NCBI GenBank assembly: GCA_944389225.1
Contig: CALXLP010000016.1
Coordinates: 1 to 32,434, forward strand
Direction of reading: 5' to 3'
Origin: an uncultured Clostridia bacterium
GTDB taxonomy: Bacteria > Bacillota > Clostridia > TANB77 > CAG-508
Length of the DNA stretch: 32,434 bases
The notes beneath the pieces were generated by a model, which saw only the letters and a list, made by a program, of their open reading frames with translations, was not told the DNA's origin and did not search any database. Each line of letters begins with the position of its first letter. Positions within the stretch are counted from its first letter, which is position 1. The translations under genes were made by a program, and so were the position numbers. Below, one piece after another: positions 1,851 to 30,061 of this stretch.

Positions 1851-1877
1851 ATTCCTAGAGTTCTTTACTCCAAGAAT
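1851..1877. repeat. Left inverted repeat of switch 1
   Basis: Arms ATTCCTAGAGT and ACTCCAAGAAT flank the centre TCTTT. It is a near-palindrome and the reverse complement of the right repeat at 22 of 27 positions, including an unbroken GAGTAAAGAACTCT block. Confidence 0.75.
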
Positions 1878-2041
1878 GATTTATTCAAGTACATAATAGC
1901 AATAAAGAAGTAGAATGTCAATAAAAATTTAAAAATAATATAGAAAAGTTGTATGAAAAGTTAGATAACAATTTTCTAAATATCATAGATCATTATTTGT
2001 TAAAATCCGTAGATTTTTTTTGCTTTTTCGTAATTATATAT

Positions 2042-2068
2042 TTTCTTAGAGTAAAGAACTCTGAGAAA
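2042..2068. repeat. Right inverted repeat of switch 1
   Basis: Arms TTTCTTAGAGT and ACTCTGAGAAA flank the centre AAAGA, the reverse complement of the left-repeat centre TCTTT. The centre differs from those of switches 2 and 3. It ends 33 bases before the pilin-like start codon. Confidence 0.75.
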
Positions 2069-2101
2069 AATATATTAAGAGAAAAGAAGGGAAGAAAACA
2101 A

Positions 2102-3424
2102 ATGAAGAAAAAATTAAAGAATACAAAAGGTATTACATTAATTGCTTTAGTTATTACAATTATTGTACTTTTAATATTGGCTGGTGTAACGATTGCAACA
2201 TTAACTGGAGATAATGGGATATTAACAAGAGCACAGATGGCAAAAGAGGGAACAGAAAAAGCAACAGCAGAAGAGAGAATACAAACAGAGGTTATGGGAA
2301 GTTATGATAATACTGGAAAGATTGAATTAGATGTATTAAATAATAATTTAAAAAATAATATACCAGAGCTAACATATAAAGGTAAGGCATTATCAGAAAC
2401 TAACAAAATAACAAATTTGCCAGCTACAGTAATGCTTGAGACATATAAAATGCAAATATCTGAGGATGGAGAAGTAAGAGAAATAAAAACAGTAGCAGAA
2501 ATAACGGATTATGTAACAAAAAATACACCAGTAGAAGATGAATATGAAAATTTGATAATTGTGCCAGAAGATTTTAAGATAAGAATTGATAATACAACAA
2601 ATAATGCAGATACAGTAAATGAAGGAATTGTAATAGAAGACAGAAAAGGAAATCAGTTTGTATGGATACCATTAGGAGAAGTAAAAACAGACAATGCTGG
2701 AACTGTTGTAAATATTACGTTGAACAGATACGATTTTGGTGGTTGTACAGAAGATACAGAAGAAAATCATGATAGTAGTTACAAGAATGCAATAGCCAAA
2801 AATATAACTGATTTTATAAATAATAGTAATAGTAACAATGGATATTATATAGGAAGATATGAGGCTGGTATAATAAATTATGATAAACAAAATATTATTA
2901 CAGAAAATACTAATGAAGAAGTAAATTGGACAGGATATAGCCCAGAAGAAGGGAAAAAACTGGAATTAGTATGTAAATCAGGTGCACAACCATGGAATTA
3001 TGTGACACAAAGTAAAGCATCTGAGTTGGCAAGAAATATGTATACAGGAAAAAATTATGAAAGTGATTTAATTAATAGTTATGCATGGGATACAGCAATT
3101 TCATATATACAGATGTGTGGAATGAAAACAAATAGTAAAAGTTATTCATCACAAAATGGACAATTTATAGATACAAGTAAACCATCAATGACAGGAGAAG
3201 GAATTTTAACTTCAACTAATACTGTAGATGAACAATGTAATATATATGATATGGCAGGAAATGAAACTGAATGGACAACGGAAACTTCTGATTTGAAATT
3301 TAGTCCTTGTGTAGACAGAGGAGGAATGTATTATTTTGATGAGCGAACTATGAATTTTAGAGGAAGAAATTCAAATACACTTGTATATGACTATATTTCT
3401 TTTCGTCCAGTTTTGTATTTTTAA
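2102..3424 (+). CDS. Pilin-like surface protein with a formylglycine-generating-enzyme (SUMF1)-like domain
   Basis: 440 residues from an ATG with a GAAGGGAAG Shine-Dalgarno; the longer frame from 1949 crosses the upstream regulatory segment and is rejected. The N-terminus (KKLKNTKG then ITLIALVITI) is a class III (type IV pilin-like) signal: basic leader, Gly10 cleavage site and a long hydrophobic helix, but with Ala instead of the usual Glu at +5. The C-terminal two thirds look like the FGE-sulfatase fold: FVWIPLGEV, GYYIGRYEAG, QPWNYVTQSKA, CNIYDMAGNETEWT, then a CVDRGG...FRPVLYF ending. This fold is used by enzymes and also by C-type-lectin-like surface binders; binding seems likelier here because of the pilin-like N-terminus. 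A putative OFF-oriented promoter switch precedes it. Confidence 0.8.
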   Translation: MKKKLKNTKGITLIALVITIIVLLILAGVTIATLTGDNGILTRAQMAKEGTEKATAEERIQTEVMGSYDNTGKIELDVLNNNLKNNIPELTYKGKALSETNKITNLPATVMLETYKMQISEDGEVREIKTVAEITDYVTKNTPVEDEYENLIIVPEDFKIRIDNTTNNADTVNEGIVIEDRKGNQFVWIPLGEVKTDNAGTVVNITLNRYDFGGCTEDTEENHDSSYKNAIAKNITDFINNSNSNNGYYIGRYEAGIINYDKQNIITENTNEEVNWTGYSPEEGKKLELVCKSGAQPWNYVTQSKASELARNMYTGKNYESDLINSYAWDTAISYIQMCGMKTNSKSYSSQNGQFIDTSKPSMTGEGILTSTNTVDEQCNIYDMAGNETEWTTETSDLKFSPCVDRGGMYYFDERTMNFRGRNSNTLVYDYISFRPVLYF

Positions 3425-3437
3425 AATGAATAAAATC

Positions 3438-3470
3438 AAAAATTCAGGCAAATGCTTGAATTTTTTTTCA
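3438..3470 (+). terminator. Rho-independent terminator after the pilin-like gene
   Basis: AAAATTCA and TGAATTTT arms around a short loop, followed by a run of T. Confidence 0.7.
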
Positions 3471-3518
3471 TATATATATATAATGACGGTAGAAAATTAG
3501 AAGGAAAGAGGTAATCAT

Positions 3519-4826
3519 ATGGCAAATATTAGTTTAAATCTAAAACATGCAGGAATTACACAAAAAACAATCTTAACATACAAAGAACAAGTAGAAAATA
3601 TACACAAGGATTTGCATAGAAGAGCAAATGATGAAAAAGATTTTGTTGGATGGTTAGAATTACCAACCAATTATGATAAAGAAGAATTCGCAAGAATAAA
3701 AAAAGCAGCAAAAAAAATAAAAAAAGAATCTGATATATTAGTGGTTATTGGAATTGGTGGATCATATTTAGGAGCAAGAGCAGTTATAGAAGCACTAACT
3801 AGTTCGTTTTATAACATGTTACCAAATAAACAAAGAAAATATCCACAAATATTATATGTTGGAAATAACTTAAGTCCAAATTATATTAATGAATTAATTG
3901 AATATATAGGAGATAAAGATTTCTCTGTTAATGTTATTTCAAAATCTGGAACGACTACAGAACCAGCCATTGCATTTAGAATCTTTAGAGAAATCTTAGA
4001 AAATAAATATGGAATTGATGAAGCAAGAAGTAGAATTTATGCAACAACTGATAAAGCAAAAGGAGCATTAAAAACATTAGCACAAAATGAAGGATATGAA
4101 CAATTTGTTGTTCCTGATAATGTAGGTGGTAGATATTCTGTATTAACAGCTGTTGGATTATTACCAATTGCAGTAGCAGGAATTGATATTGATAAATTAA
4201 TGATGGGAGCAAAAACAGCACAAGACAGATATGATGATCCAAATCTAAAATATAATGAATGTTATAAATATGCAGTTGTAAGAAATATCTTATATAAACT
4301 ATATAAAAACACAGAAATATTAGTAAATTATGAACCTAAGATGCATTATTTTACAGAATGGTGGAAGCAATTATTTGGAGAAAGTGAAGGAAAAGATCAA
4401 ATGGGAATCTTCCCAGCAGGAGTTGACTTTACAACAGATTTACATTCTATGGGACAATATATTCAAGAAGGAAGAAGAAATTTATTTGAAACGGTTATTA
4501 GTATCAAAACACCAAATTCAGATATAACAATCAATCCAGATGATGACAATTTAGATGGATTAAATTATTTAGCAGGAAAAGGTTTAGACTATGTCAATAA
4601 AAAGGCAATGGAAGGAACGATAAAAGCACATGTATCAGGAGATGTTCCTAACATTGTAATAGAAATGGAAAAACTAGATGAAGAAAATATAGGAGAACTA
4701 ATTTATTTCTTTGAAAAAGCATGTGCAATGTCTGGAAATATATTAGGGGTTAATCCATTTAATCAACCAGGTGTAGAAGAATATAAAAAGAATATGTTTA
4801 AATTATTAGAAAAACCAGGATATTAA
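3519..4826 (+). CDS. pgi: Glucose-6-phosphate isomerase
   Basis: 435 residues, the usual length of the short Gram-positive form. It interconverts glucose-6-phosphate and fructose-6-phosphate in the cytoplasm. Visible motifs are GIGGSYLG (78-85), the phosphate-binding SKSGTTTE (141-148), [14 protein letters not shown], the conserved [10 protein letters not shown] and [12 protein letters not shown] region, and the C-terminal signature [12 protein letters not shown]. The start has a GGAAAGAGG Shine-Dalgarno. The gene is monocistronic, with its own terminator downstream. Confidence 0.97.
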
Positions 4827-4827
4827 A

Positions 4828-4864
4828 AATAAAGATTGAGGGATATTCCTTCAATCTTTATTAG
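4828..4864 (+). terminator. Rho-independent terminator of pgi
   Basis: Perfect 12-bp arms AATAAAGATTGA (4828-4839) and TCAATCTTTATT (4851-4862). The T-run is short, so part of the T content is in the stem. Confidence 0.75.
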
Positions 4865-4909
4865 AGAAAAGAATGATATATAATAAATGAAATTACAATA
4901 AATAGGTGA

Positions 4910-4954
4910 GACGTGTCCCTTTTTGATAAAAAATGTCCATTTTGACACGTCCCC
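4910..4954 (-). repeat. Dispersed GGGACGTGTC repeat, copy B (inverted)
   Basis: Read on the minus strand it begins GGGGACGTGTCAAAATGGAC and continues ATTTTTT, nearly identical to the copy after pheS (16091-16136). It lies 22 bases upstream of the thioesterase gene. Confidence 0.75.
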
Positions 4955-4975
4955 AAAAGTTCATAGGAGGAAAAC

Positions 4976-5701
4976 ATGATATATAAGGAAAAATTTAAAA
5001 TAGGATTAAAAGATGTATGGGCAAAAGATGAAGTGAGTAATATTGCTATTTTAGAGTACTTAGAAGATATTGCAGCATATCATTCTGACAGTGTAGGAAT
5101 TGGTGTTAATACAACAGATGAAACACATGTAAGTTGGTTACTATTAGATTGGGAACTAGAAGTATTAAAAAGACCAAAATACGGACAAGTTTTAGAGATT
5201 CATACATGGTCTAGAGAAATAGAAAAATTTTATGCACTTCGTGATTTTGAGGTTTATGATGAGGAAAACAATTTATGTGCAATAGCAACCTCAAAATGGT
5301 TATTAGTAAATAGTAAAACAGAAAAAATAGTAAGAGTGGAACCAGAAATAGCAGATAGATATCGATCAGAATTTGGAAAATGTGTTTTTAAAGATCCTAA
5401 AATTGAAAAATTAAAAGAACCAAAAGAATATATAAGTGAAATGACATATACAGCCAGAAGAAGAGATATTGACGTCATTGGTCATATGCATAATTTAAAT
5501 TATTTATATTTAGCTTATGAAGCATTACCAGAAGAGGAATATCAAAAAAGGCCATTTAACCATGTTAGAATACAATATAAAAATCAGATAAAATTAGGAG
5601 AAACAGTAAAATGCAAATATGCAAAAGAAAATAATGAAAATATAGTCGTTATAAAAAGTGAAGATGACAAAACATTACATGCAATTATCAAAATATATTA
5701 A
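4976..5701 (+). CDS. Acyl-ACP thioesterase (FatA/B-like double hotdog)
   Basis: 241 residues, typical of bacterial acyl-ACP thioesterases, which release free fatty acids from acyl carrier protein. Two hotdog halves are visible: residues 1-130 (SNIAILEYLEDIAAYHSDSVG, VSWLLLDWELEVLKRPKYGQ, IHTWSREIEKFYALRDFEV) and 145-241, where RRRDIDVIGHMHNLNYLYLA carries the conserved Asn/His-containing active-site region. The start has a TAGGAGG Shine-Dalgarno. It stands alone between pgi and pyk, so its link to lipid metabolism rests on family similarity only. Confidence 0.9.
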   Translation: MIYKEKFKIGLKDVWAKDEVSNIAILEYLEDIAAYHSDSVGIGVNTTDETHVSWLLLDWELEVLKRPKYGQVLEIHTWSREIEKFYALRDFEVYDEENNLCAIATSKWLLVNSKTEKIVRVEPEIADRYRSEFGKCVFKDPKIEKLKEPKEYISEMTYTARRRDIDVIGHMHNLNYLYLAYEALPEEEYQKRPFNHVRIQYKNQIKLGETVKCKYAKENNENIVVIKSEDDKTLHAIIKIY

Positions 5702-5843
5702 AATGTTGAAATAACAATGTTAGTTAAAGTAAAAAAATAAAGTCAATGAAGAAAAAGTGCTAATTAAAATATAAAAAAGGAATATAATAAAGATAAAGAA
5801 AAGTATAATTTTTTAAGTTTGTGCAAAAAATAATAAAAAAATG

Positions 5844-5873
5844 TTGAAAACCGTTCTTATAGTGTGATATAAT
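5844..5873 (+). promoter_or_regulatory. Housekeeping promoter of pyk
   Basis: TTGAAA (5844-5849), an 18-base spacer, and TATAAT (5868-5873), 38 bases before the pyk start. The upstream gap from 5702 is otherwise AT-rich with nothing else recognisable. Confidence 0.7.
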
Positions 5874-5911
5874 AAGCTCTGGTTTTTAAGTTAATAAGGG
5901 AGGAATAAGAA

Positions 5912-7357
5912 ATGAAAGAAGTTTTAAGAAAAACAAACATCATTGGTACAATAGGACCAGCAAGTGAAAGTGAAGAAATGTTTACAAACTTAGTTAAAGC
6001 AGGACTAAATGTAGCAAGAATTAACTTTTCACACGGAGGATATGAAGAAAACGCAGAAAAAATAGCAACAATTAAAAAAGTAAGAGAAAAATTAAACAAA
6101 CCAGTTGCTTTATTATTAGACACAAAAGGACCTGAAATTAGAACAGGAAAACTTGAGTCTGGAGATGAAAAAGTAACTATAAATGAAGGACAAGAATTTA
6201 CATTTGTTTATGATGATATTATTGGAAATGAAACAAAAACAACAATCAGTTACAAAAACTTATATCAAGATGTAAAACCAGGAGCTAAAATCTTAGTTGA
6301 TGACGGAGCTTTAGAATTCCAAGTTGTAGAAATTGTTGGAAAAGATATTAAATGTAAAGCATTAAACACAGCAAGATTAGGAAGCAGAAAAACAATGAAT
6401 GTTCCTGGATTAAAATTAAACTTACCAGCTTTAGCACAAAAAGATATTGATGACATTACAAATGGAATTAAAGCAGGATTTGATATGATAGCTGCTTCAT
6501 TTGTAAGAAGAGCATCAGATGTTCAAGCAATCAAAGACTTATTAAAAGCAAATGGTGGAGAACACATCAAAATTATATCAAAAATTGAAAGCCAAGAAGG
6601 TATTGATAACTTTGAAGAAATCTTAGCAATATCAGATGGTATCATGGTAGCTCGTGGAGATATGGGTGTTGAAATACCAATGGAACAAGTTCCAATTGTT
6701 CAAAAACACTTTATTAAGAGATGTAATCAAGTTGGTAAACCAGTAGTAACAGCTACACAAATGTTAGAATCAATGACTTCTAACCCAAGACCAACAAGAG
6801 CAGAAGTTAGTGACGTTGCAAATGCTGTATATGATATGACAAGTTGTATCATGCTTTCTGGAGAATGTGCTATGGGTAAATATCCAGTAGAATGTGTTGA
6901 AACAATGGTTAAAATATCAAAATCAATTGAGGGAACAGTTAATTACTGGAAGAGATTTAGCAAAAAGAACTTCAAAAAAATAGATTCAGAAGATTTAGAA
7001 AAAAATATTGCTTATACAACATGTGTAACAGCTTACCAAGTAGAAGCAGATGCAATTGTTGCTTATACACATAAAGGTGATTCAGTAAGAATGATTGCTG
7101 GTATGGGACCAGGTTGCCCAATATTTGCTATAACAGATAATGAACAAACATATTATCAATTAGCAATTACATGGAATGTAACACCAATCTTAGTTAAAGA
7201 TGGAAAAACAATTGAAGATACAATTCAAAAAGGAATTGCTGAATTAGAAAACGAAGGAATTTTAGAAAAAGGTGACAAAGTTGTTCTTGCAGGAGGACCA
7301 AAAATATTACCAGATGCAACAGAAAACAAAGTTATCGGTGGAGTTGCTATCGTATAA
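5912..7357 (+). CDS. pyk: Pyruvate kinase
   Basis: 481 residues, catalysing phosphoenolpyruvate plus ADP to pyruvate plus ATP in glycolysis. The motifs are clear: GPASES near the N-terminus, ARINFSHG (35-42), DTKGPEIRTG (70-79), the KIESQEGIDNFEEI active-site segment, MVARGDMGVEIPMEQVP and VTATQMLESM. The C-terminal allosteric domain is present. The extra PEP-utiliser-like domain of Bacillus pyruvate kinases is absent, so this is the standard-length form. The Shine-Dalgarno is GGGAGG. The gene has its own promoter and terminator. Confidence 0.98.
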   Translation: MKEVLRKTNIIGTIGPASESEEMFTNLVKAGLNVARINFSHGGYEENAEKIATIKKVREKLNKPVALLLDTKGPEIRTGKLESGDEKVTINEGQEFTFVYDDIIGNETKTTISYKNLYQDVKPGAKILVDDGALEFQVVEIVGKDIKCKALNTARLGSRKTMNVPGLKLNLPALAQKDIDDITNGIKAGFDMIAASFVRRASDVQAIKDLLKANGGEHIKIISKIESQEGIDNFEEILAISDGIMVARGDMGVEIPMEQVPIVQKHFIKRCNQVGKPVVTATQMLESMTSNPRPTRAEVSDVANAVYDMTSCIMLSGECAMGKYPVECVETMVKISKSIEGTVNYWKRFSKKNFKKIDSEDLEKNIAYTTCVTAYQVEADAIVAYTHKGDSVRMIAGMGPGCPIFAITDNEQTYYQLAITWNVTPILVKDGKTIEDTIQKGIAELENEGILEKGDKVVLAGGPKILPDATENKVIGGVAIV

Positions 7358-7369
7358 TATAAATAATAG

Positions 7370-7399
7370 AAAAAACTCATCATATTGATGAGTTTTTTT
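7370..7399. terminator. Bidirectional terminator between pyk and cdd
   Basis: AAAAAACTCATCA and TGATGAGTTTTTTT arms around a 3-base loop serve both convergent genes. Confidence 0.85.
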
Positions 7400-7422
7400 G
7401 ATGCTTTATTATCAAATAAATT

Positions 7423-7812
7423 TTATAAACGAAAACTATCAGGTAGCAACTCTCCTAATGTTTTTTTATCCATTTTATCATTATCATAGTACATGTAAAT
7501 TTCAAAATCTTTATTACAAAATTCAGACATGAATTGTCGACAATATCCACAAGGAGAGGTATATTGTAATTCTTCTTTTCCACCTAATACTAAAATACAT
7601 TCAAAATCTTTTTCACCTTCAGAAATGGCTTTGGTGAAAGCAACTCTTTCTGCACAAATAGACATAATTTCATCATTTTCAATATTACATCCAGAAAAAA
7701 TCTTTTCACTTTTAGTAAGTAAAGCACAACCCACTTTATAATTGGAATATGGAGTATAGGCGTTTTCTCTGGCTTTTTTAGCAGTTTCAATTAATAAATT
7801 TATATCCATCAT
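7423..7812 (-). CDS. cdd: Cytidine deaminase
   Basis: 129 residues, the size of tetrameric cytidine deaminases that convert cytidine or deoxycytidine to (deoxy)uridine in pyrimidine salvage. The zinc site is present: CAE (53-55) with the catalytic Glu, and PCGYC (87-91). YTPYSNYKVGCAL and GCNIEN form the substrate-binding region. The segment between GCNIEN and CAE looks one residue shorter than usual, which may be lineage variation. Two adjacent ATGs (7812 and 7809) lie behind an AGGAGG site. It is convergent with pyk. Confidence 0.95.
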   Translation of the reverse strand: MMDINLLIETAKKARENAYTPYSNYKVGCALLTKSEKIFSGCNIENDEIMSICAERVAFTKAISEGEKDFECILVLGGKEELQYTSPCGYCRQFMSEFCNKDFEIYMYYDNDKMDKKTLGELLPDSFRL

Positions 7813-7963
7813 TAGATTCCTCCTTTTGAAAGTAATATATCATAAAATAGAAGAATTTACTATAAAAAAAGATAAAATATATAATTGTTGTTGACAAAAT
7901 AACTTTCTTGATATAAACTACAAATGGTTTACAAATGTAATCTAATAAAAGGAGAGCGTTCAA

Positions 7964-8467
7964 ATGCCATTTTTTGAAAAATATAAAAAAACAATATTAT
8001 TTTACTGGTTCTTATATCTTTTTATTTTAGTAGCATCAAGAGAAATTTTGCTGAAATGCAATATGGAATATAGAGGATGGGTTTATATAGTATCTTGGGG
8101 TGTCTTTATAATAGGATTTATAGCAGGAATTATACAACTCATATTAAGGATAAAAAAGAAGCCCATAAAAATTATAGGAATCATATTATTTATTATTTTA
8201 ATCATGATTTGTAGTCCATATGTATTATTATTTTTTGCTGTTACTTGTGAAGAAGAAAATATTGTCACTTATGAAAATCAAAAAATGGTAACATATACAC
8301 AATCATTTTGGGATAAACGTATTAATTATTACGAATATATAAATTTTCTAGTTAGAAAAAGATATCCAAAATTAAAAGAATATTATGGTGAAAATGGAGA
8401 GCATATACTTACATATTACAATGATAAGGGTGAAGTTATAAAAGAAGAAAATTTGGATGAAGAATAA
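7964..8467 (+). CDS. Small membrane protein of unknown function
   Basis: 167 residues. Three membrane segments (about 12-28, 40-62 and 70-92) are followed by a polar tail from about residue 95 rich in Tyr, Lys and Glu, including EYYGENGEHILTYYNDKGE, which resembles short Tyr/Gly repeats of surface or sensor domains. I recognise no family. It begins at an ATG with an AAAGGAGAG site. A weak promoter-like pair (TTGACA at 7891, TATAAA at 7912, spacing 15) lies upstream. The next gene follows after 18 bases and is also a small membrane protein, so the two probably form an operon. Confidence 0.6.
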   Translation: MPFFEKYKKTILFYWFLYLFILVASREILLKCNMEYRGWVYIVSWGVFIIGFIAGIIQLILRIKKKPIKIIGIILFIILIMICSPYVLLFFAVTCEEENIVTYENQKMVTYTQSFWDKRINYYEYINFLVRKRYPKLKEYYGENGEHILTYYNDKGEVIKEENLDEE

Positions 8468-8485
8468 TTTTTTTGGAGGATTAAT

Positions 8486-8899
8486 ATGGATATAGTAATT
8501 ATTGTATCTTTTTTAATTAGTTTTATTGCATCTATTTTAGTATTAAATAAATATCGTAAATCAGAAAGAATAGCTATGTATATTCTGATTCAATTCATAT
8601 TATGGTTTGTAAATTCTATATATGTATTTTTATCAATGTTGTTAATGCATGTGATGTTTCATGGTGTAATTGATGATATAACCATATATGCAATAGGGTA
8701 TATCATAGGTATATATTTAGTTCCTGTTTATGCTTTTTGTATTAACAAAAATAAAGGAAATGGAAAATTAATGTGTAAAGACATTCTTATTTCTACAGTT
8801 ATTTTTATTATTCTACTAGCATTTGTGTTTCTATGTATTGCATTTTTAGATGAAAAATATAATATTTTAAATTATATACAAATTTATGAACAAGGATGA
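8486..8899 (+). CDS. Small integral membrane protein of unknown function
   Basis: 137 residues, almost wholly hydrophobic, with four predicted membrane helices (about 2-20, 30-55, 62-85 and 97-120) and short charged loops (NKYRKSERIA, NKNKGNGKLMCKD). The Shine-Dalgarno is TTGGAGG. It lies 18 bases after another membrane protein and before a terminator. No family recognised. Confidence 0.6.
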   Translation: MDIVIIVSFLISFIASILVLNKYRKSERIAMYILIQFILWFVNSIYVFLSMLLMHVMFHGVIDDITIYAIGYIIGIYLVPVYAFCINKNKGNGKLMCKDILISTVIFIILLAFVFLCIAFLDEKYNILNYIQIYEQG

Positions 8900-8918
8900 T
8901 TGTATATGTATAAGTTAT

Positions 8919-8960
8919 AAAGGTGTATGAGATATGTTTCTTATACATCTTTATTTTTAT
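8919..8960 (+). terminator. Rho-independent terminator after the membrane-protein pair
   Basis: AAAGGTGTAT pairs with ATACATCTTT (with wobble), followed by ATTTTT. Confidence 0.65.
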
Positions 8961-9054
8961 ATACATGTAAAAATAAGACAGCACATTATAGAAAAATAAT
9001 AGGAAAACATATAATGAATTTATATAGAAATTCATAACGAAAATGTCAACCTTT

Positions 9055-9083
9055 TTTGTTACCGTACATATAATGTAACAAAA
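9055..9083 (+). promoter_or_regulatory. Inverted repeat and sigma-E-like -10 upstream of cotJA
   Basis: TTTTGTTAC (9055-9063) and GTAACAAAA (9075-9083) form a perfect 9-bp inverted repeat. Between them lies CATATAAT, close to the CATAnnnT -10 of mother-cell sigma-E promoters. The right arm runs into the AAAGGAGG ribosome binding site, so the repeat could act as an operator or an RNA hairpin. The -35 is not clear. Confidence 0.45.
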
Positions 9084-9097
9084 GGAGGAATTTTAAT

Positions 9098-10430: not shown

Positions 10431-10528
10431 CTTTTTAGTAAAAAACTATTAATAAATTGCAATAATTAATTGACAAAAGAACAATTGTTTGATAACATAT
10501 AGCAAACAAGAAATGGAGTTGGTTTATT

Positions 10529-11545
10529 ATGAGCAACAAACTAATTGGAAATAAAAATAACATTGTTTTTTACACTGATGAAGAAGGAAATACAAAAATA
10601 GAAGTAGTATTACAAAATGAAGATGTATGGTTAAATGTAAATGCGATAGCAGAATTATTTGATGTACAAAGACCAGCAATATATAAACATATTTCTAATA
10701 TTTTTACTGAAGAAGAATTAGAGGAAAAATCAGTGTGTTCCATTTTGGAATATACTGCATCAGATAATAAAAAATATAAAACAAAATATTATAATTTAGA
10801 TATGATTATATCAATTGGATATAGAGTAAACTCAAAAAAGGCAGTAAAATTTAGACAATGGGCAAACAAAATAATAAAAGAATATATGGTAAAAGGTTTT
10901 GCTTTAGATGATGATAGATTTTTAAATGGAGGTAAAGTAAATAGGCAATATTTTGATGAGCTATTAGAAAGAATTAAAGTAATTCGTACAAGCGAAAGAA
11001 TGGCTTATCAAAAAATAACTGATTTATTTATAGCAACATCTATTGACTATGACAAAAAATCAGAAGAAGCATATACATTTTTCAAAATAGTTCAAAATAA
11101 ATTACATTATGCAATAACAGGTCATACTGCAGCAGAATTAATTTACAATAGGGTAAATTCTGAAAAAGAAAATATGGGATTGACTACTTGGAAAGAAGCT
11201 CCAGATGGAATGATATATAAATATGATGTTAGTATAGCAAAAAACTATTTAAATGAAGACGAATTGAAAAAGCTAAATAATTTAACAAATTTCTTTTTAG
11301 ATTATGCAGAATCAATGGCGGAAGAAAATCAAGTTATGACAATGAAAGACTGGATAAATGAAACTGATAATCTTTTAAAATTTAGAAAAAAAGAAATACT
11401 AAATGATTCAGGAAAAATTTCACATAAGCAAGCTATTGAAAAAGCTGAAAAGGAATATGAAAAATTTAGAGTAAAACAAGATATACAATACATTTCTAGT
11501 ATGGATAAAATGTATCAAAGATATTTAAAAGAGAATAATAAATAA
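10529..11545 (+). CDS. RhuM family protein
   Basis: 338 residues, typical of the RhuM (virulence protein RhuM) family, which is common in genomic islands and near restriction or toxin loci; its biochemical function is not established. Family features are VWLNVNAIAELFDVQRPAIYKHISNIFTEEEL (about 32-65), a KYYNLDMIISIGYRVNSKKAVKFRQWANKIIKEYMVKGF block (about 90-128), DYDKKSEEAYTFFKIVQNKLHYAITGHTAAELI and a charged helical C-terminus. It is the only gene between two identical 37-bp repeats, suggesting acquisition. A weak GGAG site precedes the ATG. Confidence 0.85.
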   Translation: MSNKLIGNKNNIVFYTDEEGNTKIEVVLQNEDVWLNVNAIAELFDVQRPAIYKHISNIFTEEELEEKSVCSILEYTASDNKKYKTKYYNLDMIISIGYRVNSKKAVKFRQWANKIIKEYMVKGFALDDDRFLNGGKVNRQYFDELLERIKVIRTSERMAYQKITDLFIATSIDYDKKSEEAYTFFKIVQNKLHYAITGHTAAELIYNRVNSEKENMGLTTWKEAPDGMIYKYDVSIAKNYLNEDELKKLNNLTNFFLDYAESMAEENQVMTMKDWINETDNLLKFRKKEILNDSGKISHKQAIEKAEKEYEKFRVKQDIQYISSMDKMYQRYLKENNK

Positions 11546-21609: not shown

Positions 21610-21700
21610 GAGCTTTATAAAAAGTACTATAATAACATTATAGTTAATGAAAATATAAAAAATAAAAAGATAGCAAATTTATTATATTAGGAGGTTTAAC

Positions 21701-22027: not shown

Positions 22028-22047
22028 TTATTTATAAATTAATTGAT

Positions 22048-22076
22048 TTGAAAAGATTAGAAAAATATGTTAAAAT
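22048..22076 (+). promoter_or_regulatory. Promoter of the serine hydrolase gene
   Basis: TTGAAA (22048-22053), 17-base spacer, TAAAAT (22071-22076). A hairpin follows in the leader: ATGCGT (22077-22082) with ACGCAT (22104-22109), and ATACC with GGTAT around AAAAC. Confidence 0.6.
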
Positions 22077-22134
22077 ATGCGTTATGCATACCAAAACGGT
22101 ATGACGCATTAATTAATAAGGAGGTATAGATAAT

Positions 22135-22941: not shown

Positions 22942-22945
22942 CACC

Positions 22946-22996
22946 TTGTGTGCCGGGACGGGGAAATTTTCTTGTCCTGGCACATTTTCTTTTAAA
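22946..22996 (+). terminator. GC-rich terminator of the serine hydrolase gene
   Basis: TGTGCCGGGAC and GTCCTGGCACA arms around a GGGGAAATTTTCTT loop, then TTTTCTTTT. It ends just before the ylxM promoter. Confidence 0.85.
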
Positions 22997-23002
22997 AAAC
23001 TA

Positions 23003-23031
23003 TTGACAAATTGAAAAAAATAGTGTAAAGT
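23003..23031 (+). promoter_or_regulatory. Promoter of the ylxM-ffh operon
   Basis: TTGACA (23003-23008), 17-base spacer, TAAAGT (23026-23031), 35 bases before ylxM. Confidence 0.7.
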
Positions 23032-23065
23032 ATATTAGCATTACATTTTAAAGGAGTCGTTATTT

Positions 23066-23413
23066 ATGGAGAAAAATGTAGAAATCAGTATTTTATGTGA
23101 TTTATATGGAAAATTATTAACTGAAAAACAATTTGAATTCATAAATGACTACTATAATAATGACTTGTCTTTATCAGAAATTGCAGAAAATAATGACATC
23201 ACAAGACAAGCTGTTAGAGATATCATCAAAAAGGGGGAAAAGAAGCTTTTTGAATATGAAGAAAAGCTATTGTTTATGAAAAGGATGTTAAAGCAAGAAA
23301 AAAAGATTGAACAAGTTTTATCAGAATTAACAAAGATTCAAAAAGAATCTTCAGATGAGCAAGTAGCTGTTGTATTAGAACATATAAAAAAAGAATTAAA
23401 TTGTTTAGTTTAA
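23066..23413 (+). CDS. ylxM: YlxM/p13-like DNA-binding protein
   Basis: 115 residues. A sigma-70 region-4-like helix-turn-helix fills the N-terminal half (LTEKQFEFINDYYNNDLSLSEIAENNDITRQAVRDIIKKGEKKL, about 18-63), followed by a long helical, charged tail. YlxM is the conserved upstream neighbour of ffh in Firmicutes and is thought to modulate the signal recognition particle system. The order ylxM-ffh here is the standard one. The Shine-Dalgarno is AAAGGAG. Confidence 0.93.
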   Translation: MEKNVEISILCDLYGKLLTEKQFEFINDYYNNDLSLSEIAENNDITRQAVRDIIKKGEKKLFEYEEKLLFMKRMLKQEKKIEQVLSELTKIQKESSDEQVAVVLEHIKKELNCLV

Positions 23414-23447
23414 ACATATGAATAAAAAATGAATGGAGTTGAAAAAT

Positions 23448-24801
23448 ATGGCTTTTGAAGGATTATCTTCTAGATTACAAGAAATTACAAGAAAAATCAG
23501 AGGAAAAGCAAGAATTACAGAATCAGACTTAAAAGAAATGCTAAGAGAAGTAAAACTTGCGTTATTAGAAGCTGATGTTAACTATAAAATCGTAAAAGAA
23601 TTTATTGCGACTATTCAAGAAAAAGCCTTAGGTCAAGATGTTCTAAAATCTTTAACTCCAGGACAACAAGTTGTAAAAATTGTAAAAGATGAATTAGTAG
23701 AACTACTAGGTGGACAAACAAGTCAAATTAATTTTACACCAAATCCACCAACGATTATCATGTTAGTAGGTCTTCAAGGTTCAGGTAAAACCACAACAGC
23801 AGGAAAATTGGCAAATATACTTAGAAAACAAGGTAAAAAACCTTTATTGGTTGCTTGTGATGTATATAGACCAGCTGCTATCAAACAATTACAAATTGTT
23901 GGTGCACAGTTAAACATACCTGTTTTTGCAAATGAAAACTCAAAAGATGTTGTGCATATTGCAAGACAAGCATTATCTGTTGCGATGTCAAAACTAAATG
24001 ATGTAGTAATCTTAGATACAGCAGGTAGACTACATATTGATGAAGAATTAATGCAAGAACTAAAGAATTTAAAAGCAAATATTAAACCTCATGAAATATT
24101 ACTTGTTGTAGACAGTATGACAGGTCAAGATGCGGTAAATGTTGCACAAAGCTTTAGTGATAATGTTGGAATTGATGGAATTATCCTTACAAAGCTTGAT
24201 GGTGATACCAGAGGTGGTGCAGCACTTTCTGTTAAAAAAGTAACAGGAAAGCCAATTAAATTTGCAGCAACTGGAGAAAAACTAAGTGACATCGAAGTAT
24301 TCCATCCAGATAGAATGGCTCAAAGAATTTTAGGAATGGGAGACATTCTAGCAGTTATTGAAAAGGCTGAAGAATCATTTGATATGGAACAAGCTGAACA
24401 GCTTGAAAAGCAAATGAAGAAAAAAGAATGGGATTTAGATGATTATTTAACACAAATTAGACAAGTAAAGAAAATGGGTTCATTTTCATCATTATTAAAA
24501 CTAATACCAGGATTTAGTCAGATAAAAGATTTAAAAGTAGATGATAAGGAATTTGTTAAAATTGAAGCAATTATTTGTTCAATGACAAAAGAGGAAAAAC
24601 GAAATACAAAATTATTAAATGCAAGTAGAAGACAAAGAATTGCAAAACGGAAGTGGAACAACTGTACAAGATATTAACAAATTCATCAAATCTTTTGAAA
24701 TGACACAAAAAATGATGAAACAGATGAAAAACAACAAAGGTGGTATGAAGAAACTATTAAGTGGAATTGATGAAAACACATTAAAGAATTTTAAATTTTA
24801 A
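23448..24801 (+). CDS. ffh: Signal recognition particle protein Ffh, interrupted by a +1 frameshift
   Basis: The start is ATG 23448 (MAFEGLSSRLQ), nine bases after GGAG; an ATG at 23433 lies before that site. Straight translation ends at 24677 (409 residues), in the M domain. Skipping the C at 24648 joins RRQRIAK to GSGTTVQDINKFIKSFEM and gives 450 residues, the normal length. The NG GTPase domain is intact: GLQGSGKTT (108-116), DTAGRLH, TKLDGD. Ffh binds signal peptides and SRP RNA to deliver membrane proteins; the shift falls at the conserved GSG loop that contacts SRP RNA, so the truncated form should not work. Ffh is essential, so the shift must be bypassed or be a sequence error. Confidence 0.95.
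24648..24650 (+). other. In-frame CGG codon at the +1 frameshift of ffh
   Basis: GCA AAA CGG AAG TGG is the straight reading; GCA AAA (C) GGA AGT GGA restores the conserved AKGSGT. Context NNA-C-GGN, as at two other loci. Confidence 0.88.
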
Positions 24802-24862
24802 GTTGTTATTAAATTTTTAAATTTATATAAATATTCAAAAATTTTCAGGAGGTGAACCAAAA

Positions 24863-25096
24863 ATGGTAAAAATAAGATTACAAAGACAAGGAAAGAAAAA
24901 AGCTCCATTCTATCACATTGTAGTTGCTGATTCAAGAGCTTCAAGAGATGGAAAAATTATAGAGCAAATAGGAACATATGATCCAATGACAGATCCAGCA
25001 ACAATCGTATTAGACAAAGAAAAAGTTGAAAAATGGATTAAAAATGGTGCAAAACCAACAGATACAGTTAAAGCTTTAATTGAAAAAGCTAACTAG
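24863..25096 (+). CDS. rpsP: 30S ribosomal protein bS16
   Basis: 77 residues covering the full conserved core: [35 protein letters not shown] and the C-terminal [21 protein letters not shown]. It assembles early on 16S rRNA. The Shine-Dalgarno is AGGAGGTG. Its position between ffh and a KH-domain gene is standard. Confidence 0.97.
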
Positions 25097-25148
25097 TCAA
25101 ATAATTTCTTTGGACAATAAAGAAGAACAAGTTTAGTTGGAGGAAATT

Positions 25149-25379
25149 ATGGAAGAATTTTTAAGAATTATCATTTCAAATTTAGTAGAGAATAAAGATG
25201 CTATCGAAATCAATACGATAGATAAAGGAAAATCTGTTACATTTGAAGTAAAAGTAGCCCAAGAAGACATGGGAAAAGTAATAGGAAAGCAAGGTAGAAT
25301 TGCACAATCTATTAGAAATGTTATGAAGGCTGTTGCAAATAAAGAACATAAAAAAGCATCAGTAGAATTTTTAGGATAA
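25149..25379 (+). CDS. khpA: KH-domain RNA-binding protein KhpA
   Basis: 76 residues from ATG 25149, six bases after GGAGG; a TTG at 25137 lies before that site. A single KH type II domain with the RNA-binding loop VIGKQGRIAQSIR (GxxG = GKQG). In Firmicutes KhpA pairs with KhpB/Jag and affects cell division and RNA metabolism. It sits in the conserved place between rpsP and rimM. Confidence 0.93.
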   Translation: MEEFLRIIISNLVENKDAIEINTIDKGKSVTFEVKVAQEDMGKVIGKQGRIAQSIRNVMKAVANKEHKKASVEFLG

Positions 25380-25393
25380 TAGGAGTAACCAAT

Positions 25394-25900
25394 ATGTTAC
25401 CAAATCTAGAAATTGGTCAAATCGTCAATACATTTGGGATAAAAGGAATGGTGAAAGTCAAACCATTTACAGATGATATTAGAAGATTTGATGAATTAAA
25501 AACAGTATATGTTGAAAAAAACAGTAATCAAACAGAATATGAAATTGAAGAAGTAAAATATCATAAAGATATGGTATTAATAAAATTCAAAGGTATAGAC
25601 AAAGTAGAACAAGCAGAAATGCTTCGAAATAGTTATCTAACAGTTTCTAGAGATTCAGTAGAAAAGCTAGAAGAAGGAAGATATTATATCGTAGATTTAC
25701 TTGGACTAGAAGTTTATACAGATGAACAAACTTTATTAGGAACTTTAGAAGACATATTCAATACTGGTAGTAATGACATATATGTTGTAAAAGATAAACA
25801 AGGAAAACAAATTCTTTTACCAGCCATACAGGATGTAATTAAACAAATTGATATAGAAAATAAGAAAATCATTGTACACTTACTTCCTGGGTTAATATAA
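25394..25900 (+). CDS. rimM: Ribosome maturation factor RimM
   Basis: 168 residues. The N-terminal beta-barrel starts IGQIVNTFGIKGMVKVKPFTDD; the C-terminal PRC-barrel has YYIVDLLGLEVYTDE, LGTLEDIFNTGSNDIYVVK and ILLPAIQDVIKQIDIENKKIIVHLLPGLI. It helps mature the 30S head, acting with bS19. Start 15 bases after khpA with an AGGAG site; trmD follows after 12 bases. Confidence 0.96.
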   Translation: MLPNLEIGQIVNTFGIKGMVKVKPFTDDIRRFDELKTVYVEKNSNQTEYEIEEVKYHKDMVLIKFKGIDKVEQAEMLRNSYLTVSRDSVEKLEEGRYYIVDLLGLEVYTDEQTLLGTLEDIFNTGSNDIYVVKDKQGKQILLPAIQDVIKQIDIENKKIIVHLLPGLI

Positions 25901-25912
25901 AAGGAGCATTTT

Positions 25913-26575
25913 ATGAAATTTGATGTTTTAACACTATTTCCAGAAATGTTTGAAATATTAAATCAAAGTATTATTGGAAAAGCAATTGAAAAAGACATAA
26001 TTGATATTAATTTAATTAATATTAGAGATTTTTCAAAAGATAAACATAAAAAAGTAGATGATACACCTTATGGTGGTGGTGCTGGAATGGTAATGAAACC
26101 AGATGTAGTATATGATGCATATCAATCTGTAACAGATAAAGATGCAAAAGTTATCTATATGTCACCACAAGGAAAACCATTAAATCAAAAGAAGGTAGAA
26201 GAATTATCAAAAGAAAACCATTTAATTATACTTTGTGGACATTATGAAGGAATTGACCAAAGGGTATTGGATAAAATTGTAGATGAAGAAATATCTATAG
26301 GAGACTATGTATTAACAGGTGGAGAAATCCCAGCAATGGTGTTAATAGATAGTGTTAGTAGATATGTAGAAGGCGTTTTAAAAGAAGATTCTATAAAAGA
26401 AGAAAGCTTTTCAAATGGACTTCTAGAATATCCACAATATACAAGACCAGAGGTTTTTGAAGGAATGAAAGTTCCAGAAGTATTACTTTCAGGTCACCAC
26501 GAAAATATAGAAAAATGGAGAAAAGAAAAATCTTTAGAAATAACAAAGAAAAAAAGACCAGAGTTATTAAAATAA
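25913..26575 (+). CDS. trmD: tRNA (guanine-N1)-methyltransferase
   Basis: 220 residues. TrmD methylates G37 of tRNAs reading CNN codons, preventing +1 frameshifting. Motifs: [30 protein letters not shown], the trefoil-knot SAM site [13 protein letters not shown] and [11 protein letters not shown], then [11 protein letters not shown]. The length is slightly shorter than the usual 240, with a shorter C-terminus. Its known role in frame maintenance on proline tRNAs makes it worth noting next to a frameshifted ffh, though no direct link is implied. Confidence 0.96.
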
Positions 26576-26588
26576 ATTAATTTTAGCA

Positions 26589-26690
26589 AGGGTCATCATA
26601 TATTCACAAGGGTAAGGGACATATCTTGTCCTAATAGAAATACCCGAGAGAAAGATGTGTCCCTTGACATTAAGAAAAGGAGGAAATTCT
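26589..26690 (+). ncRNA. Probable ribosomal protein L19 leader RNA
   Basis: The gap between trmD and rplS contains a strong 14-bp stem: AAGGGACATATCTT (26614-26627) with AAGATGTGTCCCTT (26652-26665). GGGTA (26610-26614) could pair with TACCC (26641-26645) inside the loop, a pseudoknot-like contact. The position directly before rplS fits the known L19 leader of Firmicutes, an autoregulatory mRNA structure. The identity is inferred from position and shape. Confidence 0.6.
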
Positions 26691-26693
26691 AAA

Positions 26694-27302
26694 ATGGATA
26701 TTATAAAATCAATTGAACATGAACAATTGAAAAATAAGATACCAGAATTAAAAGTTGGTAATACAGTAAGAGTACACGTAAGAATAAAAGAAGGAAACAA
26801 AGAAAGAATCCAAGTTTTTGAAGGAATTATTATAAAAGTACAAGGTGGAGGAGTGAACCAAACATTTACAGTAAGAAAAAATTCTTATGGTGTAGGTGTT
26901 GAAAAAACATTCTTAGTACACTCTCCATTAGTTGAAAAAGTAGAATTAGTAAGGGTAGGTAAAGCAAGAAGAGCAAAATTATACTACCTAAGAGATAGAG
27001 TAGGTAAAGCTGCTAAGACTAAAGAACAAGTTGGAGCAAGAATTGAAAATAGAGAAATTACTATTAAAGAAGATTTAGTAGAAGAACCAGCAGTAGAGGA
27101 AGCTCCAGAAGAAGCACCAGCTGTTGAAACAGAAAACGTAGCTGTTCAAGAAACAGTTGATACAGTTTCTGAAGAAGTTGTTGAAGAGGTTAAAGAAGTA
27201 GAAGAATCTAAAAAAGAAGAAAAAGCTGAAAAAGTTGAAGAAACTAAAGCTGAAGAACCAGCTAAAAAAGAAGAAGTAAAAGAAGATTCTAAAAAAGCAT
27301 AA
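26694..27302 (+). CDS. rplS: 50S ribosomal protein bL19 with long acidic C-terminal extension
   Basis: 202 residues from ATG 26694 behind AAGGAGG; a longer frame from 26655 starts inside the leader hairpin. Residues 1-115 are a normal bL19 ([70 protein letters not shown]) at the 30S-50S interface. From about 125 on is a low-complexity tail of Glu, Val, Ala and Lys ([33 protein letters not shown]), about 80 residues longer than the family norm. The tail is in frame and has matching composition, so it is real. Its role is unknown. Confidence 0.95.
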
Positions 27303-27317
27303 TATGAAAGATAATAA

Positions 27318-27362
27318 AGAGTTGTATATTGAGATATTTATTTCAGATATAACTCTTTTTTA
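27318..27362 (+). terminator. Terminator of the ylxM-rplS operon
   Basis: AGAGTTGTATATTGAGAT and ATTTCAGATATAACTCT arms with a T-run. Confidence 0.75.
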
Positions 27363-27508
27363 TTGGATACTGGAGTGATTAACCAAATATGAAATTTATT
27401 TAAATTTCTTGTTTTTTATTTTTTGCTATGATAAAATTTTTTTGAAATAAGCTTATTTAAATATAAATAGAACTAAAATAACTTATAAAGTTAAAAGGGG
27501 AAGATTTA

Positions 27509-28045
27509 ATGAAAATAGAATATGAAAGGCATACAAATTCAACAAGTTTTATGATTATATGTGGTATTACTTTAATAGTATTAATTATATTTGAAATAAT
27601 AAATTATATAGTCATTGGATTTAATATAAGTTTTGTAGTTTTAGTATGCTTGAATATATTAATGATAGCAGTACTTGTATCAGCGATATATGATAAAAAA
27701 ACGATTACTATAGAGAAAATAAAAAATAAAGGAAGAAAAATAAAAGCACATATTATTGAAACAGGAACTATTAACAAAAGTAGGCAAATGGGGATTTATT
27801 ACTATTTAGGTATTCGTTACAATGGAAAAAATATGAGAATCTATGTGAAAAATAATAAAACCTTTAAAATATTAAATTTATTATTAAAACCATATCCTAT
27901 TGATAAAAAAATTGAAATACCAGTAGATATGTATATATATAAAGGTAATCGATATGTAGATATAGAAAATATAAATCTTACAAAAATTGAAGGTTATAAT
28001 GAAGCTGAAAAAATAGTGAAAGAAATAAAAAATGAATTTTATTAA
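27509..28045 (+). CDS. Two-helix membrane protein of unknown function
   Basis: 178 residues. Two membrane helices (about 13-33 and 38-60) are followed by a soluble beta-rich domain of about 110 residues (KIKAHIIETGTINKSRQMGIYYYLGIRYNGKNMRIYVKNNKT and DMYIYKGNRYVDIENINLTKIEGY). The layout resembles DUF3592-type small membrane proteins, though I cannot confirm the family. The Shine-Dalgarno is AAAGGGG. It stands alone with its own terminator. Composition is like its neighbours. Confidence 0.6.
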   Translation: MKIEYERHTNSTSFMIICGITLIVLIIFEIINYIVIGFNISFVVLVCLNILMIAVLVSAIYDKKTITIEKIKNKGRKIKAHIIETGTINKSRQMGIYYYLGIRYNGKNMRIYVKNNKTFKILNLLLKPYPIDKKIEIPVDMYIYKGNRYVDIENINLTKIEGYNEAEKIVKEIKNEFY

Positions 28046-28052
28046 AATAAGA

Positions 28053-28078
28053 AAGAGGGAATATCCTCTTTTTTTGCT
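28053..28078 (+). terminator. Terminator after the two-helix membrane protein
   Basis: AAAGAGG, GAATA loop, TCCTCTTT then T-run. Confidence 0.8.
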
Positions 28079-28114
28079 TATAATAGTTTGGCTTTTTGTA
28101 TATACAAAAAATAA

Positions 28115-28141
28115 TTTCTTAGAGTTAGATACTCCAAGAAA
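28115..28141. repeat. Left inverted repeat of switch 2
   Basis: Arms TTTCTTAGAGT and ACTCCAAGAAA flank the centre TAGAT. Confidence 0.75.
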
Positions 28142-28280
28142 TTTTTTCATAAAAATAATATCAATAAATGATGATAATGTCAATAAAAAACAAATAAATT
28201 TATAAAACTAAAATTATAAGTAGAAGAGTAGAATAGATTTCTAAAAATCCATATTTTCTAATATATTGCTCGCTTTATAT

Positions 28281-28307
28281 TTTCTTAGAATATCTAACTA
28301 AAAGGAG
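28281..28307. repeat. Right inverted repeat of switch 2
   Basis: Arms TTTCTTAGAAT and ACTAAAAGGAG flank ATCTA, the reverse complement of the left centre. The most diverged repeat of the six; its outer part is close to the AAAGGAGG ribosome binding site. Confidence 0.65.
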
Positions 28308-28328
28308 AATATAAAGGAGGATAAATAA

Positions 28329-29825
28329 GTGAAAACAAAAGAATTAAAAGGAGACAGAGGAATTACATTATTGGCATTAGCTATTACAATTATTATCTTA
28401 TTAATTTTAGCGGGAATTACGATAAGTGCGATAACAGGAGATAACGGATTAATAAGAAATGCAGGAAATGCAAAAGAAGAGAGCGAAATAGATAATGAAA
28501 AAGAAATTGTAGATACATGTACAGTACAAGCCATGGGAGAAAATAAATATGGAAATATAACAAAGGAAGATTTACAAAATGAATTAGATAATTACACTGG
28601 TGAAGGAATAACAGAAGTATTATATGATGGAGAAGATACTTTATATGTTTATTTTACAGAAACAAAACGATATTATACAGTAGATATAGATGGAATAGTA
28701 AATGGACCAGTAACAGCTGATAGAGCAGAAGATAACTATCCAGGAGATATTACAAAAGATGAAAATGGAAATGAATTATCAGGTGATACAGAAGATGATG
28801 CATATCAAATAAATTGTATAGAAGATTTATGTGCGCTTTCTAATTATTGTAATAATGGTGATAATACATGGAGTAACAATACTTTTAGTGGAAAATATAT
28901 TGTACTTACAAAAAATCTTGATTTTAAATCAGATTTATCTTATATCAATGGTCAAATTGGCGCAAAAGGAAATATACCAAGTTGTAATTCTATAGAAGAA
29001 CTGAAAGAACTATTAACGACAGGAGAAGGGTTTTGTCCAATTGGAATAGAAAATAACACATTTAGAGGACATTTTAATGGTGATTATTATACTCTATCCA
29101 ATTTATATATGAATAGTGATAAGAATGCAGGAGTATTTGGAGCGTGTTGGAATGCAGAGATTAAAAATATACTAGTAAAAGGAGAAATGAATGTTAGAAA
29201 TGATTTATCAAGTTCACTTGTTCAGGCTGGAGGAATTACTGGTTGGAGTAGAGGGTGTACTTTTATAAATTGCATTAATTATGCTAATATAAAAGGAGTA
29301 AGCTCTGCAAGAATGGGAGGAATTTCAGGAGTTGAATATAATGATGGTAGTCAGTTTATAAATTGTGCTAATTATGGAACAATTACAGGTGGAAGTAATG
29401 GAGCAGGAATTCTTGGATGGGATTGGAGTATGAATTCTAAAATATATAATTCTGTTAATGCAAATGTAGCACCAAATGGCATTGTTGCTTGTGGATATGC
29501 AAATACATATACAGAATTAGTAAATACAATTATTTATGGAAAATGTAATTCTTCAATAGAAAAAGGGATTACGAAAATTAATCATTGTTTCTATTTGATT
29601 GAAAATATAACTTCATCAAACAATGAATTGATTGTAGGATATAATGAAACAAAAATGAAATCAGAAGAATTTGTTGAGGAGTTAAATACATTTATTGAAA
29701 CAGGTGGAAATGGAGATAATATTGATACAACAGGTTGGGCTAAATGGGTATATCATGAAAGTGATTTTCCAACATTAGATATAAAAACAACTTGGGATGG
29801 TACAAAATGGAAGACAGTAGAATAA
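28329..29825 (+). CDS. Pilin-like surface protein with GLUG-type repeats (paralog 1)
   Basis: 498 residues from a GTG start behind AAAGGAGG. A class III signal is present: KTKELKGDRG then ITLLALAITIIILLILAG; cleavage is after Gly, and Ala replaces the usual +5 Glu. Residues about 45-130 form a conserved stalk-like region shared with the gene at 30076 (VQAMGENKYGNITKEDLQNEL, RYYTVDIDGIVNG). YPGDITKDENGNELSGDTEDDAYQI follows. The C-terminal half has GLUG-like beta repeats (AGGITGWSRGCTFINCINYANIKG, MGGISGVEYNDGSQFINCANYGTITG), typical of adhesins. A probable secreted or pilus-associated adhesin under an OFF-oriented switch. Confidence 0.8.
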   Translation: MKTKELKGDRGITLLALAITIIILLILAGITISAITGDNGLIRNAGNAKEESEIDNEKEIVDTCTVQAMGENKYGNITKEDLQNELDNYTGEGITEVLYDGEDTLYVYFTETKRYYTVDIDGIVNGPVTADRAEDNYPGDITKDENGNELSGDTEDDAYQINCIEDLCALSNYCNNGDNTWSNNTFSGKYIVLTKNLDFKSDLSYINGQIGAKGNIPSCNSIEELKELLTTGEGFCPIGIENNTFRGHFNGDYYTLSNLYMNSDKNAGVFGACWNAEIKNILVKGEMNVRNDLSSSLVQAGGITGWSRGCTFINCINYANIKGVSSARMGGISGVEYNDGSQFINCANYGTITGGSNGAGILGWDWSMNSKIYNSVNANVAPNGIVACGYANTYTELVNTIIYGKCNSSIEKGITKINHCFYLIENITSSNNELIVGYNETKMKSEEFVEELNTFIETGGNGDNIDTTGWAKWVYHESDFPTLDIKTTWDGTKWKTVE

Positions 29826-29868
29826 AAAAATGTAAAAATGAAATATTTTTATATAAAAAATAGAAAAA

Positions 29869-29895
29869 TTTCTTAGAGTAATTTACTCTAAGAAA
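29869..29895. repeat. Left inverted repeat of switch 3
   Basis: A perfect palindrome in its arms: TTTCTTAGAGT and ACTCTAAGAAA, with asymmetric centre AATTT. Confidence 0.8.
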
Positions 29896-30034
29896 TTTTC
29901 TTATAAAGATAATATCAATAAAATATTGAACTGTCAATAAAAATAAAAGAAAAAATAGAAATGAAATAACAACAATAATAATAATAACCGCTTAAGAAAA
30001 ATCCATTTATTCTGCAACTTTTGCACTTCTTTTA

Positions 30035-30061
30035 CTTCTTACAGTAAATTACTTTAAGAGA
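30035..30061. repeat. Right inverted repeat of switch 3
   Basis: Arms CTTCTTACAGT and ACTTTAAGAGA flank AAATT, the reverse complement of the left centre. It agrees with the inverted left repeat at 23 of 27 positions. Confidence 0.75.

Follow-up and report, generated by a model that had tools for sequence, protein, structure and literature searches.

Closest described systems

In Bacteroides fragilis, the master DNA invertases Mpi, Tsr0667 and Tsr19/BF2766 each act on many distant surface-gene promoters (PMC4747536), and a comparable arrangement is suggested by the stretch analyzed here (the window), i.e., 32,434 nucleotides of contig CALXLP010000016.1 from an uncultured Clostridia bacterium (GCA_944389225.1; genome G000 below). 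The window carries three segments, each bounded by inverted repeats, enclosing a promoter-like sequence and standing in front of a pilin-like gene; as in B. fragilis, one enzyme might preside over many such promoters. However, the B. fragilis systems belong to a host of the Bacteroidota, act on capsule and outer-membrane loci and, in the case of Mpi, use a serine recombinase, and the available portion of that source (the comparisons in this section refer to such portions) mentions no homopolymer gate on the enzyme gene. Surface lipoproteins of mycoplasmas provide a second precedent, with invertible promoters in M. penetrans and the Xer1/vpma system in M. agalactiae (PMC2268961, PMC9187656). 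These resemble the present case in that a tyrosine recombinase varies a paralogous family of surface proteins, but the proteins are lipoproteins rather than pilin-like, the vpma system brings genes to one promoter, and its T-tract lies at the vpma promoter, whereas the T-tract described below lies inside the recombinase gene.

Within Clostridia, the RecV-type switches of Clostridioides difficile involve recombinase-driven inversion of promoters or leaders, a likeness drawn from description, although they concern flagella, signaling and other single loci as opposed to one paralogous pilin-like family. Further, in a defined gut community, inverton group 139 of Clostridia has been associated with the tyrosine-type invertase group 35 (PMC11892184). 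Here too, segments flanked by inverted repeats are tied to a nearby tyrosine recombinase family, the likeness being again one of description; the word "pilin" occurs zero times in that paper, the available portion of which likewise mentions no enzyme with a variable reading frame. Finally, in the gut commensal Bifidobacterium breve, pili are gated by replication slippage at a homopolymer inside a gene (PMC9187656), with the difference that its G-tract lies in the pilus clusters themselves, whereas the present T-tract belongs to the putative invertase gene and so sits a step higher than the pilin-like genes. No invertase gene gated by a homopolymer was recognized anywhere in the literature searched, the scope of which excluded preprints and most subscription journals, and a 2025 review of phase variation, in the portion available, makes no use of "hierarch". 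Promoter inversion by a shared enzyme and homopolymer slippage are each well known as means of varying a cell surface; what would be new is their being stacked, with a shuffler placed under a stutter switch.

Considered jointly, the evidence makes it quite probable, as far as genome sequences can speak to this, that at least 19 invertible pilin switches in G000 are governed by one slippage-gated tyrosine recombinase. The reading draws on the observed sites and their centres, promoter-like sequences and pilin-like genes, on inversion between genomes, on the co-occurrence of enzyme gene and sites, and on length variation and selection at the tract. The proposed mechanism can be outlined as follows. 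The three window switches are part of one class of at least 19 in this genome. In switches of this class, as comparison between genomes shows, a crossover inside a 27-base-pair (bp) site turns the segment round; one orientation points the promoter at the pilin-like gene and presumably sets its transcription. A single tyrosine recombinase is proposed to invert all of them, with slippage at a run of T's in its gene predicted to open and close the reading frame. Hence, only cells with an in-frame tract would flip any pilin switch, and an out-of-frame slip would freeze the whole pilin pattern.

A genome-wide family of switches upstream of pilin-like genes

The original prediction, made from the window alone, described three segments with 27-bp sites around minus-strand TTGACA-N17-TATTAT promoters, and with 5-bp centres (TCTTT, TAGAT and AATTT) that are exact reverse complements in the partner repeat; all of these were recovered where it had placed them. 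Switch 1 (1851..2068; sites 1851-1877 and 2042-2068; centre TCTTT/AAAGA) carries its promoter-like sequence at 1893..1921 on the minus strand, facing away from a plus-strand pilin-like gene of 440 amino acids (2102..3424), and is hence OFF. Switch 2 (28115..28307; sites 28115-28141 and 28281-28307; centre TAGAT/ATCTA; minus-strand promoter-like sequence at 28155..28183) is likewise OFF and precedes a plus-strand gene of 498 amino acids with a GTG start (28329..29825). Switch 3 (29869..30061; sites 29869-29895 and 30035-30061; centre AATTT/AAATT; minus-strand promoter-like sequence at 29909..29937), also OFF, precedes a plus-strand open frame of 312 amino acids (30076..31014). The first and second of these genes match PF07963 with E-values of 0.064 and 0.22, both below the cut-off. 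The partner repeats in the window are imperfect copies, their arms matching the consensus at 18 and 21, 21 and 17, and 22 and 18 of 22 positions in switches 1, 2 and 3, respectively. With up to 3 mismatches allowed, the consensus site is found three times in the window, once per pair, as against 0 in 100 shuffles; the other site of each of the three pairs is more degenerate and falls outside this limit. The promoter pattern TTGACA-N16-18-TA[TA][TA]AT has four matches in the window, three of which are the switch promoters.

Extension of the site search to the whole of G000 (1.72 megabases in 109 contigs, 86.6% complete) yielded 26 consensus matches at the same limit versus 0 for the reversed pattern. 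These resolve into 18 pairs, 189-221 bp long and with exact reverse-complement centres, which share a common build: two 27-bp sites, each consisting of an 11-bp arm, a 5-bp locus-specific centre and a second 11-bp arm, with the promoter-like sequence between them. All 18 stand directly before a gene that starts with a pilin-like stretch (e.g., GITLIALVITIIVLLILAG), and all 26 sites fall in such switches. Fetching the remaining loci with a pilin-like N-terminus uncovered a 19th switch at C12, together with a weak switch at C46 and a site truncated where C13 begins. Accordingly, the at least three switches of the original prediction have become no fewer than 19 in this genome, and their control by one enzyme is proposed on the basis of the co-occurrence described below. 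The promoter-like sequence between the repeats is weaker in two of the 19 (C18:23273 and C5:56418).

In the reverse direction, a search of G000 for the pilin-like N-terminus returned 29 places, 26 of them strong, and a well-formed switch is found at 19 of these 26 genes, or at 21 if the weak C46 and the cut C13 cases are counted. No switch was seen at the pilin-like genes of C8, C80, C9, C7 and C6:15, the last being at a contig end. Among eight pilin-like proteins scanned, the C-terminal parts vary, with LRR_5 repeats, GLUG motifs and a weak sulfatase-modifying-like match. PF07963 is matched by six of the eight (E-values 0.0018 to 0.22), and since none of these matches clears the cut-off the label is kept at "pilin-like"; NCBIfam models likewise gave nothing over the cut-off in the eight proteins. 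The genome also encodes a prepilin peptidase (PF01478, C1:29632-29970) and pilus-type assembly ATPases (PF00437, C9:37736-39770; two over the cut-off). No exact site was present in the viral contigs searched.

Two further observations concern the window. The frame of the third pilin-like gene stops at 31014, whereas 30986-31528 offers a GLUG-like continuation in a different frame; the place where the two meet contains no long homopolymer. Additionally, positions 10529-11545 encode a RhuM-family protein, part of which is Bro-N-like (PF13310, E-value 1.5e-101); genes of this kind are often found near mobile elements.

Inversion of segments of this class between genomes

Orientation was scored from the gene side and the promoter direction in stretches fetched from 11 genomes, G000 included. 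Among the 159 paired switches, 121 were OFF and 18 ON, the remaining 20 lacking a resolvable gene side and being left out of the count, which thus covers 139. In G000 itself, 18 switches are OFF and one is ON. Hence, the earlier statement that all are OFF is true of the three window switches but not of the class in general (1 of 19 ON in G000; 18 of 139 over the 11 genomes). The sole ON switch of G000 (C1:78332-78524) has an ortholog that is likewise ON (G097:C1:193753-193944), and may be held in that state.

In 62 locus comparisons both outer flanks could be matched. Five of these, at four loci, are inverted according to both promoter direction and segment alignment. In another 43 the two measures agree on collinearity, in 14 the promoter indicates collinearity while the segments give no match, and there are no conflicts. 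In the clearest case (G020:C93 versus G095:C12) flank identity is 97-100% across 400 bases on either side, while the 163-bp core is 100% identical when inverted and 74.1% as it stands. A second case (G094:C61 versus G098:C95), with flanks of 96% and 83% identity, has a core that is 98.1% identical inverted and 58.3% as is. In it the inner arms have swapped places with the segment and the outer arms have not moved, which places the crossover inside the site. The third (G094:C13 versus G098:C19) gives 88.4% against 50.8%, and the fourth (G007:C75 versus G095:C33), partly masked and weak, 51.4% against 28.4%. Thus, both orientations exist between genomes at four loci, three of them clean, and segments of this class do invert in nature, as the original prediction had claimed.

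It might be argued that the repeats, rather than being recombination sites, fold into RNA or cruciform structures within a regulatory region that is itself fixed: each site is itself palindromic, the centres of a pair are complementary, and most orthologous pairs are collinear. Such a fixed structure is contradicted by cores that are inverted between matching flanks with their inner arms exchanged, and we accordingly consider it very improbable. Two other ideas were abandoned. Contig ends at switches were considered as a sign of mixed orientation but were rejected, since several contigs end within the conserved beginning of the pilin-like gene. A terminator within the segment was likewise dropped as not general: terminator-like hairpins in the gene-side half were found in 29 of 138 segments versus 12 in one shuffle of each, the mean fold z on the gene side of the segment is -0.38 (67 segments), and the three window switches contain no terminator-like hairpin.

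The sites were also paired in a way that does not select for the centre: each strong site in the 11 genomes was joined to the best-matching second site at a distance of 110-400 bp, leaving out nine strong sites with no partner in the examined stretch. Of the 172 resulting pairs, 154 have exact reverse-complement centres, one has a single mismatch and 17 have unrelated centres. In all of these 17 the partner is weak (13-16 of 22), and in one of them (G000:C41) the exact centre belongs to a lower-scoring site, which is the true partner. The centres had been proposed to act as a barrier to crosstalk, and in G000 this may hold, with 18 distinct centres among 19 switches. However, the centre TCAAT is common to four or five loci per genome in G007, G020, G095 and G098, and centres are thus not private in every case. 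The arms also differ by position: across the 139 switches with a resolvable gene side, the inner arms, i.e., those changing partners at each inversion, match the consensus at 10.0 and 10.3 of 11 positions and the outer arms at 9.3 and 8.5. In this set, drawn from the 11 genomes, the outer arm on the gene side deviates from the consensus at fixed positions (2, 4, 5 and 9 of 11), so that the sites carry a systematic asymmetry.

A candidate tyrosine recombinase that tracks the sites

The original prediction had placed the recombinase outside the window and had directed attention to the neighbourhood of a site pair. A tyrosine recombinase gene is indeed found at G000:C18:1908-2841, 177 bp behind the pilin-like gene of a switch; it would encode about 310 amino acids when full but is split over two frames, and thus out of frame, in the assembly. 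Seven of 13 recombinase copies are preceded on their own strand by a pilin-like gene, in four cases with a called switch. The full-length ortholog P0007 matches PF00589 with an E-value of 1.9e-33, and the closest solved chains are those of the "Int protein" 6en0 (E-value 2.6e-22). The full form contains HxLRH, GH and NRY stretches, which we take to be the catalytic motifs of tyrosine recombinases and which are absent from the short forms discussed below.

Among 94 genomes, an ortholog at 84% identity or more is present in exactly five (G000, G027, G025, G020 and G007), the next homolog being at 52%, and the same five have 26, 22, 24, 27 and 16 sites, respectively. Of the other 89, 88 have no site and one (G031) has two, with one in its control. 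A scan of named genomes recovered 12 orthologs at 79% identity or more, followed by a drop to 40%; these belong to assemblies recorded as uncultured Clostridia, Eubacteriales or Clostridium, one of which is labeled Chicken_20. Site searches in six further ortholog-bearing genomes, which leave out L190 and L192, found sites in all (16, 29, 14, 16, 36 and 8), with 0 in the controls. The gene and the sites therefore co-occur exactly, which makes the recombinase the candidate enzyme for the switches. Of the earlier proposal of one trans-acting recombinase, the single gene tracking the sites across genomes is borne out, and its action on them is predicted.

More distant homologs offer a further comparison. 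Among 25 of their loci, two (in G021 and G041, at 52% and 49% identity) adjoin a switch that shares the build but not the arms (L088:2574-2775 and L089:2448-2663; arms TTCTTTAAGT/ACTTAAAGAA), again with reverse-complement 5-bp centres. Recombinase and site hence seem to diverge in step. The G021 homolog, too, loses its frame in the corresponding region, though without a T run, and G012, a relative lacking sites of the present kind, has five recombinase homologs at 47-50% identity.

A variable T-tract in the recombinase gene

Beyond what the original prediction contained, alignment of five orthologs revealed a run of 9 to 11 T's within the recombinase coding region, so that the gene itself varies in frame. 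Three of the 13 copies examined at the DNA level are in frame (L195, L198 and L200) and 10 are out of frame. Correspondingly, 22 proteins at 74% identity or more, counted without P0024 (179 amino acids, 62% of the query), divide evenly into 11 of 309-310 and 11 of 227-244 amino acids. Differences in frame occur even within four pairs that share 98.6-99.1% identity across 218 residues; since two of these pairs fall in one cluster, they represent three clusters of near-identical sequences. This is the frame-changing length variation among close relatives by which a homopolymer contingency tract is recognized. In G000 the tract is the only run of at least nine A or T, or at least seven G or C, in 163,884 coding bases examined (frames of at least 150 codons). 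The short forms stop before the HxLRH, GH and NRY stretches and, on the above understanding of these motifs, should be inactive.

The ratio of nonsynonymous to synonymous substitution rates (dN/dS) has a median of 0.087 for the portion preceding the tract and 0.013 for the portion following it, computed after removal of those among 78 sequence pairs whose dS fell outside 0.05-1.5 (9 and 10 pairs). Strong purifying selection thus acts on the post-tract portion, which indicates that the later frame is in use, though most copies cannot read through to it as assembled. This bears on whether the segments could be inverted by some other recombinase, for example the housekeeping Xer pair or a serine recombinase, with the tract-bearing gene a decaying passenger. 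Two Xer-like genes are found in all 15 genomes scanned, one serine recombinase is present in G000 (looked at in that genome alone), and out-of-frame copies of the candidate predominate (10 of 13). We nevertheless regard this explanation as improbable: the Xer-like genes are also present in genomes without sites, whereas the candidate is distributed exactly as the sites are; a gene in decay would not maintain a dN/dS of 0.013; and the homologs in G021 and G041 adjoin switches with other arms.

Several points weigh against the proposal of a single slippage-gated recombinase. The three segments of the window are collinear, and none inverted, in their orthologous comparisons; the bias toward OFF is strong (121 of 139); gene and sites may occur together in part because the genomes concerned form one clade of common descent; further recombinases exist, XerC/XerD-like ones among them; and the tract lengths come from metagenome assemblies, in which homopolymers can be miscalled. 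Further, genomes with an in-frame copy have 5 of 30 switches ON and the others 13 of 109, with no clear difference, which argues against a tight coupling of orientation to frame state and would fit either a gate running on its own clock or slippage in the transcript.

In its strict form, the latter would mean that the T-tract is not a genetic gate, and that slippage by RNA polymerase or the ribosome yields a steady small share of full-length protein from out-of-frame copies. We think this unlikely, while giving it some weight, as it would account both for the ON share not being linked to frame state and for strong selection on a post-tract frame that 10 of 13 copies cannot read directly. However, the variation in tract length between near-identical copies and the full-length frame in 11 of 22 proteins are what slippage in DNA predicts, although slippage in DNA and in the transcript or ribosome could act together.

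Implications of a possible two-layer hierarchy

On balance, we lean towards a two-layer hierarchy in this lineage, in which a tract prone to replication slippage in a master invertase gene decides whether about 20 pilin promoters are reshuffled, populations alternate between frozen and shuffling states, and sister recombinases in the genus have come to use sites of the same plan but with arms of their own. Such a hierarchy would explain an invertase that appears broken in most assemblies and yet has a conserved frame. The switches themselves represent a natural set of sites with one arm pair and many centres, and together with those of the diverged homologs could supply a cross-species series of recombinases and sites usable for specificity tests. 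If the hierarchy is real, the lineage would have gained heritable and reversible control over the pace of change of its whole pilin repertoire.

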